Positions 44,282 through 52,199 of a stretch of 64,000 bases of DNA are shown here, piece after piece. Within the stretch, counting starts at the first letter, position 1, and each line of letters opens with the position of its first letter. The translations under genes were made by a program, and so were the position numbers. This stretch comes from an uncultured Oligoflexia bacterium (lineage in GTDB: Bacteria; Bdellovibrionota; Bacteriovoracia; Bacteriovoracales; Bacteriovoracaceae), in assembly GCA_913058265.1 (NCBI GenBank), contig CAJXPQ010000002.1, positions 124,001 to 188,000 of the forward strand. The letters run 5' to 3'. The notes beneath the pieces are model-generated. The model had not been told where the DNA came from and did no database searches. It saw nothing but the letters and a program-made list of their open reading frames with translations.

Positions 44282-44310
44282 TTTACGGAAAAGTTACGGT
44301 TTGTTATACT
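44282..44310 (+). promoter_or_regulatory. umuDC promoter with putative LexA box
   Basis: A -35-like TTTACG (44282-44287), 17-base spacer and -10 TATACT (44305-44310) precede umuD. Overlapping the -35 and spacer, TACGGAAAAGTTACGG (44284-44299) is a direct repeat of TACGG at an 11-base period, the same motif found twice between lexA and dinB. Confidence 0.7.
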
Positions 44311-44316
44311 TGCTGA

Positions 44317-44772
44317 ATGCGATATATCCCTCCCGTTATTACAGCTAAAGATAGGTCTCAGTTTTACCATTCTGGTGAGAAGTATCTGATCCCAGTTTAC
44401 TCAATGGCCGTGAGCTGTGGCCTATTTGGTATCCAAGATGACCATGTCGAAAACTATATCAGTCTCGACAAAGAGTTTATCAAAAACAAACTTTCAACAT
44501 TTATTTTTCGTATGCAAGGAGAGTCTATGTCTCCGTATATATGCGAGGGAGATTATCTCATTGTAGATCGAGCAGTGAGCGCATATTCCAATCGAGTAGT
44601 CATTGTGGATATTTTTGATGAACGCGTATGTAAGTTATATATCCAGCAAGAAGGATGTATCACTCTGCGCTCACTAAATACTAAGCATAAAGACTTAGTC
44701 GTCACAGAGGAGATGAATATGCAGATCTTTGGTGTTGCTACTCTGTGCTTTCGTGACTTGGTACTCAAGTGA
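44317..44772 (+). CDS. umuD: UmuD-like SOS mutagenesis protein (S24 peptidase fold)
   Basis: A 151-residue UmuD homologue that cleaves itself with RecA help and then joins UmuC as DNA polymerase V. A Cys34-Gly35 pair in AVSCGLFGIQ is the likely self-cleavage site, as in E. coli UmuD. The catalytic Ser70 is in QGESMSPYI and Lys106 in ERVCKLYIQ. The predicted transcription start falls on or next to the ATG and no Shine-Dalgarno is visible, so the message may be leaderless. Its stop overlaps the GTG start of umuC (GTGA). It is controlled by the putative LexA box directly upstream. Confidence 0.92.
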   Translation: MRYIPPVITAKDRSQFYHSGEKYLIPVYSMAVSCGLFGIQDDHVENYISLDKEFIKNKLSTFIFRMQGESMSPYICEGDYLIVDRAVSAYSNRVVIVDIFDERVCKLYIQQEGCITLRSLNTKHKDLVVTEEMNMQIFGVATLCFRDLVLK

Positions 44773-46040
44773 AAGAGAAGGTGTTTGCTCTGGTAGACTG
44801 TAATAGTTTTTATTGTAGTTGCGAGAGACTCTTTAAACCATCGCTTAAGAACAAGCCTGTCATAGTTCTATCTAATAATGATGGCTGTGCGATAGCAAGA
44901 ACTCAGGAGGCCAAGGACTTAGGTATAAAAATGGGGGATCCATTTTTTAAGATAAGAGACTATTGTAAAAAAAGTGACATCCATGTTTTTTCCTCAAACT
45001 TTGCGTTGTATACGAATATTTCTGATCGAGTGATGAAAACACTAGCTCGCTTTGCTGTGACAATAGAAGTTTATAGTGTTGATGAAGCATGGCTTGATAT
45101 AACTGGGGTTACAGATGACTATACTGCGTATGGAAAAAAAATAGAACAAGCGATCTTAAGAGAAGTTGGAATACCTGTTGGAGTAGGAATTGCTCCTACA
45201 AAGACTATGGCAAAACTTGCAAATCATCTGGCCAAGAAATCTATAAAAGCAAACGGTGTTGTGAATTTGATGGAGAAGCAATTTGTAAGTGTTGCACTAA
45301 AAAGAGTCGCAGTGGGAGATGTGTGGGGAATAGGTAGTAGAAGTGCAGAAAAGCTAAGGGCGATTAATATTAGAACGGCATATGACTTTGTAAACTTTAA
45401 AAATGACAAGCTCATACAAAAAATCTTAACGAAGCCAGGTCTGCAACGTAAGCAGGAGTTGCAAGGGATTAGGTGTTTTGAGCTTGAGGTTGATATCCAG
45501 GACAAGAGAAGTATCGGCTGTAGTCGTAGTTTCTCTATTGGTGTCTATGCGAAGAATGAAATGAAAGAAGCGATTGCAAACTATATAACTCATGCTACGC
45601 AGAAGCTGCGTAAGCAAAAAGGATTATGTTCAAGAGTCAGCGTATATATGCGTACGAGTCCATTTAAGGATACAAATCAATACTCACGCATGGAAACAGC
45701 ATTGCTAGCGTCACCTAGCTCAAATACTTGTGAGCTTATTGAGGTGGCCTGGGCCATTGTAGAGATTATTTTTAAGCAAGGTTATGAGTATAAGAAGGCA
45801 GGGATTGAACTCCATGGGTTGATAGGAACTAGCGAATTTCAACTCTCATTTCCGTCATTTAGTAATCATATAAGCTCAGGGGAATTAATGAAGGTAATGG
45901 ATAATGTGAATGTTAAGAATGGTGATATGTGCCTGAAATCTCTTGCCTGTGGTACGAGTATGGGGGCATGGAAAATGCTGAGAGAACATAAGTCACCGTC
46001 ATATACGACCAACTTCAAGCACGTCCAAAATGTGAAGTAA
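44769..46040 (+). CDS. umuC: UmuC-like Y-family DNA polymerase (Pol V catalytic subunit)
   Basis: A 423-residue translesion polymerase. Catalytic motifs FALVDCNSFYCSCERLFKP (first metal Asp) and YSVDEAWLDI (second acidic pair) and the thumb/little-finger region with GVGIAPTKTMAKLANHLAKK are intact. The C-terminal ~60 residues show the UmuC-specific tail (SLACGTSMGAWKML near 395-408). The start codon is GTG overlapping umuD, so the pair is translated in step, as expected for the UmuD'2C complex. Length matches E. coli UmuC (422). Confidence 0.95.
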   Translation: MKEKVFALVDCNSFYCSCERLFKPSLKNKPVIVLSNNDGCAIARTQEAKDLGIKMGDPFFKIRDYCKKSDIHVFSSNFALYTNISDRVMKTLARFAVTIEVYSVDEAWLDITGVTDDYTAYGKKIEQAILREVGIPVGVGIAPTKTMAKLANHLAKKSIKANGVVNLMEKQFVSVALKRVAVGDVWGIGSRSAEKLRAINIRTAYDFVNFKNDKLIQKILTKPGLQRKQELQGIRCFELEVDIQDKRSIGCSRSFSIGVYAKNEMKEAIANYITHATQKLRKQKGLCSRVSVYMRTSPFKDTNQYSRMETALLASPSSNTCELIEVAWAIVEIIFKQGYEYKKAGIELHGLIGTSEFQLSFPSFSNHISSGELMKVMDNVNVKNGDMCLKSLACGTSMGAWKMLREHKSPSYTTNFKHVQNVK

Positions 46041-50463: not shown

Positions 50464-51066
50464 CTAGTACGATCTATACAGGCCGACAAGTATACCTTTT
50501 ATCTGAAAATCCCCATCATTAATAATGATTGGTTTCATAGAGCTATTGGCAGGATGAAGCTCTATGCAATTTGAGCGTTTATAATATCTTTTGACCGTGG
50601 CTTCATTATTAACAGTGGCAATGACTGTTTCACCATTAGTGGCCGTATTCTTTTCTTTTACAATAATAAGATCCCCGTCAAATATTCCATCGTCAATCAT
50701 GGAGTGGCCACTTACGCTTAGAGCGAAGTGATTTCCAGTTGAAACCATCGAAGAAGGAATACTGATCATCTCTGTACCTTCAATTGCCTCAATTGGGTTT
50801 CCGGCAGCAACGTTTCCGTGGAGTGGGATATCGATTACTGATGAGTCTATTTGAGAAGTTGATACAGGAGTTAAACCTCTGACTGAGTTTGCATCACTTT
50901 GAAGATAACCTGCACTTTTTAAGTAACGAATATAATCTTGTACAGATCCAAGAGACTTGAAACCAAAGTTTTCTTGGATTTCAGTTTGTGTAGGGGAAAA
51001 GCCCTCACTTTGAAGATAGTCACATATATAGTCATAAACTTGTTTCTGTTTCTTAGTTAGACTCAT
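50464..51066 (-). CDS. lexA: LexA repressor
   Basis: A 200-residue SOS repressor. N-terminal winged-helix DNA-binding domain (residues 1-65: KKQKQVYDYICDYLQSEGFS with the recognition region SLGSVQDYIRYLKSAG), then the self-cleaved Ala88-Gly89 bond in NVAAGNP, catalytic Ser122 in VSGHSMIDDGI and Lys159 in NEATVKRYY. I start at 51066, where AAGGAAA precedes the ATG; the longer frame from 51225 would run back through the operators and into dinB. The recognition helix differs from E. coli LexA, in keeping with the unusual operator seen here. Divergent from dinB; autoregulation is likely. Confidence 0.95.
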   Translation of the reverse strand: MSLTKKQKQVYDYICDYLQSEGFSPTQTEIQENFGFKSLGSVQDYIRYLKSAGYLQSDANSVRGLTPVSTSQIDSSVIDIPLHGNVAAGNPIEAIEGTEMISIPSSMVSTGNHFALSVSGHSMIDDGIFDGDLIIVKEKNTATNGETVIATVNNEATVKRYYKRSNCIELHPANSSMKPIIINDGDFQIKGILVGLYRSY

Positions 51067-51088: not shown

Positions 51089-51104
51089 CCGTATGATTTC
51101 CGTA
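51089..51104 (-). promoter_or_regulatory. Putative LexA box 1 (lexA proximal)
   Basis: Read on the minus strand: TACGGAAATCATACGG, two TACGG at an 11-base period. It lies 22 bases ahead of the lexA ATG, just past the predicted transcription start (about 51109). Confidence 0.65.
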
Positions 51105-51115
51105 GTACTTTAAAT

Positions 51116-51144
51116 ACTATATCCGTAAAATTTCCGTAGATCAA
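51116..51144 (-). promoter_or_regulatory. lexA promoter
   Basis: On the minus strand, -35 TTGATC (51144-51139), a 17-base spacer and -10 TATAGT (51121-51116). The spacer is filled by LexA box 2. Confidence 0.6.
51123..51138 (-). promoter_or_regulatory. Putative LexA box 2 (dinB proximal)
   Basis: Read on the minus strand: TACGGAAATTTTACGG. It sits between the -35 and -10 of lexA and 17 bases ahead of the dinB ATG, so one bound repressor could silence both genes. Confidence 0.65.
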
Positions 51145-51155
51145 GGAGTTTTTTG

Positions 51156-52199
51156 ATGGAAAGAAAAATAATTCATGTTGATATGGACTACTTTTTTGCT
51201 CAAGTAGAGGAAAGAGATAACCCAAAGCTTAGAGGAAAACCGGTCGCCATTGGTGGGCTGATGAACGGTAGAGGAGTTCTTAGTACAAGCAACTACGTAG
51301 CAAGAAAGTATGGCGTAAAGGCGGCCATGCCAACTCTCATGGCGTTAAAACTATGTCCTCAGCTTATCTTAGTTCCTGGTAATTTTGAGAAGTATAGAAA
51401 GGCCTCCACTGAGATCTTTGAAATTTTTCAACAATTTACAAAGAAAATTGAACGACTCTCATTAGATGAAGCCTATTTAGATGTGACTGATAATACAAAG
51501 TATAAACATGCAAAAGATATTGCCATCGAAATTAGAAGAAGAATTTATGGTAAAACCGGACTCACCGCAAGTGCTGGTGTTTCATATAATAAACTATTGG
51601 CAAAAATTGGCAGTGATTTTTATAAGCCCAACGGGATGGCGATTATACCTCCACATAATATTAAAGAGAAGATTATAAATTTTCCGATTAAATGGATTTG
51701 GGGGGCAGGCAAGGTTACGCAGGAAAAAATGAACCTTAAGGGCATTTATACCTTTGGAGATTTACAGCAATTTTCAAAACTTGATTTGATCAATCATTTT
51801 GGCGACTTTGGAGCTTCTCTATATAACTATTGCCGTGGTCTGGATCATCGTGCTGTTTCAGAGGGGGGCGAGAGGAAGTCACTAACGGTAGAGAGAACTT
51901 TTTCAGAAGATATTAAGGATGATCAAATTGTCTTAGGTTACCTAGAAGGTGCATACGATGAAATGATAGAGCGTCTTAAGAAATATCAAGAGAGAAAGGT
52001 TAAAACAATCTTAGTAAAAATTAAATATCATGATTTTAGGTCCACAACAATTGAAGCCTCTCTAGATAAGGTATTTGAAAATTTTAAAAATCTTTACTTC
52101 AAAAGAAGAGGAAGTGGAAGAGATGCAATTAGACTTATTGGTTGTGGTGTTAAATTTTATGATACTCAAACAAAGGGGCAGTTAGAGTTCTACTTATAA
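51156..52199 (+). CDS. dinB: DNA polymerase IV
   Basis: A 347-residue Y-family translesion polymerase. The N-terminal HVDMDYFFAQVEERDNP carries the first metal Asp residues, and RLSLDEAYLDVT the second acidic pair. KPVAIGG and GVSYNKLLAKIGSDFYKPNG are typical Pol IV segments. It ends QLEFYL, a plausible sliding-clamp-binding motif. I start at the ATG at 51156, with AAGGAG seven bases upstream; a TTG at 51153 is in frame but not needed. It is divergent from lexA and shares its operators. Confidence 0.95.
   Translation: MERKIIHVDMDYFFAQVEERDNPKLRGKPVAIGGLMNGRGVLSTSNYVARKYGVKAAMPTLMALKLCPQLILVPGNFEKYRKASTEIFEIFQQFTKKIERLSLDEAYLDVTDNTKYKHAKDIAIEIRRRIYGKTGLTASAGVSYNKLLAKIGSDFYKPNGMAIIPPHNIKEKIINFPIKWIWGAGKVTQEKMNLKGIYTFGDLQQFSKLDLINHFGDFGASLYNYCRGLDHRAVSEGGERKSLTVERTFSEDIKDDQIVLGYLEGAYDEMIERLKKYQERKVKTILVKIKYHDFRSTTIEASLDKVFENFKNLYFKRRGSGRDAIRLIGCGVKFYDTQTKGQLEFYL

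Follow-up and report, generated by a model that had tools for sequence, protein, structure and literature searches.

The divergently arranged lexA and dinB genes of an uncultured Oligoflexia bacterium raise the question of which DNA sequence serves as the SOS operator of LexA in this lineage. The window analyzed here is a stretch of 64,000 nucleotides from a genome (G000) whose family has Bacteriovoracaceae/Halobacteriovoraceae as its named members, and none of the open-licence papers searched describes a LexA box in that family. Between the ATG of lexA (51066, minus strand) and that of dinB (51156, plus strand) lies a gap of 89 bp, not 91 bp as given in the original prediction, which had also described two minus-strand sites of the form TACGGAAA-N3-TACGG at this place. 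Both sites are present as exact matches and are referred to as the predicted LexA boxes 1 (51123..51138, TACGGAAATTTTACGG) and 2 (51089..51104, TACGGAAATCATACGG). Judged by the location and conservation of such sites, the TACGG repeat is almost certainly what LexA binds in this member of the Bacteriovoracaceae and in related bacteria.

Both flanking genes match their curated families. The lexA gene (50464..51066, minus strand) encodes a LexA repressor of 200 aa with an N-terminal LexA winged helix-turn-helix domain and a C-terminal S24 autoprotease domain (PF01726 and PF00717), scoring 184.6 bits against TIGR00498, above the curated cut-off of 110.95. Residues A88-G89, S122 and K159 are invariant in an alignment of 20 rows; we take them to be the Ala-Gly cleavage site and the Ser/Lys catalytic pair, with roles as in E. 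coli LexA. The protein matches a solved E. coli-type LexA over its full length, and the helices align, including residues 39, 40 and 44 with the recognition helix. This helix, KSLGSVQDYIRYL, carries L39, G40 and D44, and the homologous E. coli protein has RSPNAAEEHL where KSLGSVQDYI is found here. The dinB gene (51156..52199, plus strand) encodes DNA polymerase IV (PF00817, E=2e-52; PRK02406, 418 bits against a cut-off of 256), and RecA likewise matches its curated family.

Within the gap, a consensus scan found TTGATC-17-TATAGT (51116..51144, minus strand) as the sole promoter-like site, assigned to lexA, and detected no plus-strand promoter for dinB. As originally proposed, box 1 fills the 17 nt between the -35 and -10 elements of this promoter, and it is the best genome-wide match of a box model built from relatives (E=0.003). 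Box 2 (E=0.02) follows just downstream of the lexA -10 element in the region common to lexA and dinB, and most close relatives possess a comparable second box. Because box 1 fills the space between -35 and -10, LexA bound there would be expected to block RNA polymerase directly, while box 2 would strengthen the repression and also act on dinB, which is read in the opposite direction. The overlap with the promoter spacer, together with the TTGAC that directly precedes the box in most relatives, could also be read as a conserved promoter element, or as chance repeats, with no repressor role. This reading is barely conceivable: at recA, the boxes in the clade of the window have the opposite orientation and immediately precede a conserved TTGCTTGGC element, outside any recognisable spacer, and the repeat recurs mostly at SOS genes and is nearly absent from genera without lexA.

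A third predicted box that the original prediction did not include was identified 6.8 kb from lexA/dinB in the umuDC promoter region (44284..44299, plus strand; TACGGAAAAGTTACGG, exact match, box-model E=0.01). A umuD-like gene begins 17 bp downstream of this box, which falls in the spacer region of TTTACG-17-TATACT (44282-44310), a candidate promoter. The umuD-like gene (44317..44772, plus strand) encodes an S24 peptidase (PF00717, E=1.5e-24) whose best NCBIfam match, PRK10276 (UmuD subunit), stays below the cut-off. It overlaps umuC (44769..46040, plus strand; overlap at 44769 vs 44772), which encodes a Y-family polymerase V subunit with DUF4113 (PF00817, PF11799, PF13438) and has PRK03609 (UmuC) as its best NCBIfam match, at 376 bits and below the cut-off of 431. 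Allowing up to one mismatch, the window contains three matches where 0.35 are expected, a number equalled in 1 of 100 shuffles.

The genome-wide scan that had been suggested as a check, for the motif near repair genes, came out in favour of the prediction. Exact TACGG-N6-TACGG occurs four times in the 3.23-Mb genome: twice at lexA/dinB, once at umuDC and once at recA. The lexA, recA, dinB and umuDC loci thus all carry a predicted box in this genome. The count in itself is near chance, with one site in the reversed control and 2.4 expected from base composition; an argument from numbers was accordingly rejected, and the case rests on location and conservation. For a site placed by chance, the probability of falling in the 300 bp upstream of any of the five SOS genes is about 5e-4. 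These four sites were also the ones recovered by the box model at E<0.03, with the next match in the genome at E=1.7; this search scored the best 150 first-pass candidates and may therefore have overlooked weak sites. The list of sites with up to one mismatch (27 matches, exact ones included, vs 69 for the reversed control) was set aside as a regulon, as the two genes read from it (L008, L023) are not repair genes. A repair radical SAM gene that is boxed in relatives was searched for in this genome and not found. With only four sites, and with both of the only two Y-family polymerases in the genome boxed, the predicted regulon is small, comprising lexA, dinB, recA and umuDC.

Conservation across the family provides the second line of evidence. 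TACG-N7-TACG was found within 300 bp upstream of 75 of 77 family lexA genes, and the strict form is absent from the other two promoters. When TACG pairs were counted at every distance, 71 of the 77 lexA promoters contained a pair at a step of 11 bp, as the original prediction of a direct repeat with this period implied; any other step was found in at most nine, and shuffled sequences reached a maximum of two, so A+T-rich letters alone offer no explanation. Two flavours can be distinguished. In the clade of the window, TACGG-N6-TACGG is usually present as two boxes, and the rest of the family usually has one TTACGC-N5-TTACGC box inside TTGAC...-10; the TACGGAAA form is specific to the one sub-clade. 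The recA upstream regions of relatives carry the flavour that matches their clade, with the box about 175-245 bp upstream in most family members outside the clade of the window. In six complete genomes, 22 exact TTACGC-N5-TTACGC sites, mostly at lexA, recA and umuD, compare with none in the reversed control. Further boxed targets in relatives are an ImuB-like Y-family polymerase and a putative repair radical SAM protein (TIGR03916), the latter lying directly behind a LexA box at L352 (G078) and L316 (G014).

Since palindromes make up the majority of known LexA boxes (PMC8565304), the operator bound by LexA might really be palindromic, in the manner of TTAC-N3-GTAA, with the direct repeat incidental, and an inverted TACG..CGTA pair is indeed present in a few members as well (e.g. 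G028, G006). The distances in the family lexA promoters make this very unlikely. The commonest inverted TACG..CGTA pair is found in 11 promoters, against the 71 of 77 with a direct pair at 11 bp, and TTAC..GTAA exceeds the shuffled maximum at no distance; the palindromic reading was rejected on this comparison. In the lexA/dinB gap of the window, no TTAC-N3-GTAA palindrome was seen. For the direct-repeat operator, the most likely arrangement is a LexA dimer whose two winged-helix domains would each contact one TACGG half-site, oriented head-to-tail and spaced by one helical turn (11 bp).

If the boxes are bound by LexA, they should depend on its presence, and their distribution agrees with this. 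In 14 family genomes with lexA, 53 sites were counted vs five matches of the reversed control, and five family genomes from genera without detectable lexA gave two sites vs eight control matches. The latter genomes (G026, G042, G019, G025, G003) retain recA and have almost no boxes, and a lineage-specific loss of SOS control is possible in these genera. In three further genomes (G023, G085, G059) lexA was not found and the boxes are still there; here, lexA was probably lost in assembly. Another damage-responsive regulator, e.g. an XRE-type co-regulator or a UmuD-like S24 protein, might conceivably use these sites at the same promoters. Such a scheme has precedents, since non-LexA S24 repressors such as HdiR, UmuDAb and Bacteroidetes LexA run SOS-like networks (PMC8565304) and M. 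xanthus is reported to use DdiA (PMC12288472). It is nevertheless extremely improbable here, given the near absence of boxes from the genera without lexA and the way in which the box letters follow the residues of the LexA helix, also within genomes that have two LexA paralogs.

This covariation between protein and DNA involves residue 44 and the base that follows TACG. Of 38 genes with Asp44, 37 have G or T at this base, whereas Arg or Lys is paired with C in all 46 and Asn with C in 21 of 27. For residue 40, N40 is accompanied by TTACA (15/15) and G40 by TACG (94/95). In genomes with two LexA proteins (G006, G052), each paralog gene has the box of its own type, D or R, and within family f8 a QD in LexA is accompanied by TTACGG-type boxes, a QN or QR by TTACGC. 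When the helix columns were left out of the tree, three changes of D44 could be placed on it, and wherever the box differs it does so in step with the residue; with so few independent switches, the sign test is not significant (p=0.25) and the link between residue 44 and box flavour is suggestive. At the molecular level, the flavour switch could be accounted for by Asp44 facing a cytosine and Arg or Lys facing a guanine on the opposite strand.

The motif thus behaves as predicted for a LexA box: it is found at lexA, dinB, recA and umuDC, is conserved in the family, and tracks both the presence of LexA and the residues of its helix. From these patterns we infer that LexA binds these sites as a head-to-tail dimer, represses the genes and lets them be induced as in an SOS response. 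Besides the two boxes at lexA/dinB, the further boxes would repress umuDC and recA; upon DNA damage, RecA filaments would stimulate LexA self-cleavage, leading to derepression of lexA, recA and the two Y-family polymerases. The same 11-bp architecture would extend across the Bdellovibrionota, with the letters TACGG, TTACGC, TTACA, GTACG and GTTCG going with LexA residues 39, 40 and 44. Taken as a whole, the explanation that TACGGA-N5-TACGGA is the LexA SOS operator in this genome, including the mechanism and the phylum-wide architecture, appears very likely from the comparative data.

The originally proposed status of the motif as matching neither the Bdellovibrio nor the alphaproteobacterial box, and as founding a new LexA binding class, needs to be qualified. 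The alphaproteobacterial LexA box is GTTC-N7-GTTC (PMC8565304). Compared by box only, it shares head-to-tail half-sites of 4-5 bp and a step of 11 bp (4+7) with the sites described here, whereas the half-site differs, GTTC as opposed to TACGG or TTACGC in the family, with GTTC being restricted to other LexA lineages of the phylum. Owing to this common geometry, a new class is not supported; the TACGG box, as far as its letters and spacing tell, is a new sequence of the known direct-repeat kind and not a new binding mode. The statement on the letters stands with respect to both known boxes, but the contrast with Bdellovibrio is weakened because Bdellovibrionaceae lexA promoters have the same 11-bp repeat with TTACA half-sites. 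A direct repeat with a TTACA half-site is also known from the Balneolaeota, where the EMSA-tested box TTACACATATTTTWTACATA belongs to a LexA regulon of recA, lexA, pol IV/V and a radical SAM protein (PMC7739468). The Balneolaeota box resembles the present one in being a direct repeat and in having a radical SAM target, as in the relatives of the window's genome, and differs in its phylum, its TACA letters in place of TACGG and a step of 13 bp, taken from the printed consensus, instead of 11. The E. coli box, CTGT-N8-ACAG, is a palindrome with other letters.

For B. bacteriovorus, the published box is a palindrome, TTAC-N3-GTAA, reported to control few SOS genes, and according to the title of reference 49 in PMC8565304, LexA does not govern the canonical SOS genes of this species. 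The Bdellovibrio box and the box of the window come from the same phylum and share the TTAC letters, and TTAC-N3-GTAA overlaps TTACA-N6-TTACA in Bdellovibrionaceae lexA promoters; the difference is that the published box is a palindrome, while the boxes in the genome of the window form no palindrome and are also present at recA and umuDC. In f6, all eight lexA promoters of the TTACA type contain two converging direct repeats, and the strict TTAC-N3-GTAA, which appears to be their junction, is present in four of the eight, a further observation against a palindromic operator. The same arrangement, converging 11-bp boxes with TTAC-N3-GTAA at the junction, was seen at L260, L381 and L382 (Bdellovibrionaceae lexA and imuA-like promoters). 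The group f6/g83 is presumed to be Bdellovibrio, partly from the presence of the TTACACTGTAA site. In the genomes so assigned, the dinB box (L374, L375, L403) is a direct repeat only, and the dinB promoter taken as that of B. bacteriovorus carries TTACACATTATTTACAT without TTAC-N3-GTAA; in one relative, G197, a box was also found at recA. The dinB box and the G197 recA box appear to conflict in part with the published view of B. bacteriovorus SOS genes. These arrangements suggest that TTAC-N3-GTAA marks the point where two converging direct repeats meet and that the published Bdellovibrio box is only part of a larger site. The small regulon reported for Bdellovibrio would then be incomplete, as exemplified by dinB with its single direct-repeat box, and a correction to the published box is suggested.

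In the remainder of the phylum, other Bdellovibrionota families have TTACGC-N5-TTACGC, and TTACA-type 11-bp repeats are found in f11 and f21 as in the Bdellovibrionaceae. Some LexA lineages have GTACG, or a GTTC-N7-GTTC identical to the alphaproteobacterial box. On a joint reading that we regard as probable, the LexA boxes of most Bdellovibrionota form a single 11-bp direct-repeat family whose letters (TTACGC, TACGG, TTACA, GTACG, GTTCG) drift with LexA residues 39, 40 and 44 and are linked stepwise to GTTC-N7-GTTC, with the Bdellovibrio palindrome as the junction of converging boxes and its reported regulon as incomplete. It is uncommon for a master regulator to change its DNA box repeatedly, as LexA has done, and this phylum presents a graded series of boxes with constant spacing, changing letters and matching LexA helix residues. 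Given this series and the genomes in which two paralogs have different boxes, the recognition code becomes testable by a one-residue swap. With this operator, the SOS regulons of predatory Bacteriovoracaceae can also be predicted.

Several individual promoters show additional arrangements. GTTC-N7-GTTC was observed at the lexA promoters L265 (G133, f15) and L278 (G230, the second LexA type of f6). The lexA genes of f3 (L273, L274) are preceded by a CCATAC-N4-GTATGG palindrome, outside the direct-repeat pattern. Upstream of one recA gene (G083:C4:74109-74147), four TTACGC half-sites follow each other in tandem at 11-bp steps, with a -35-like TTGAC between two of them, and similar triples of half-sites are present at other recA and lexA genes (G034, G068, G082).
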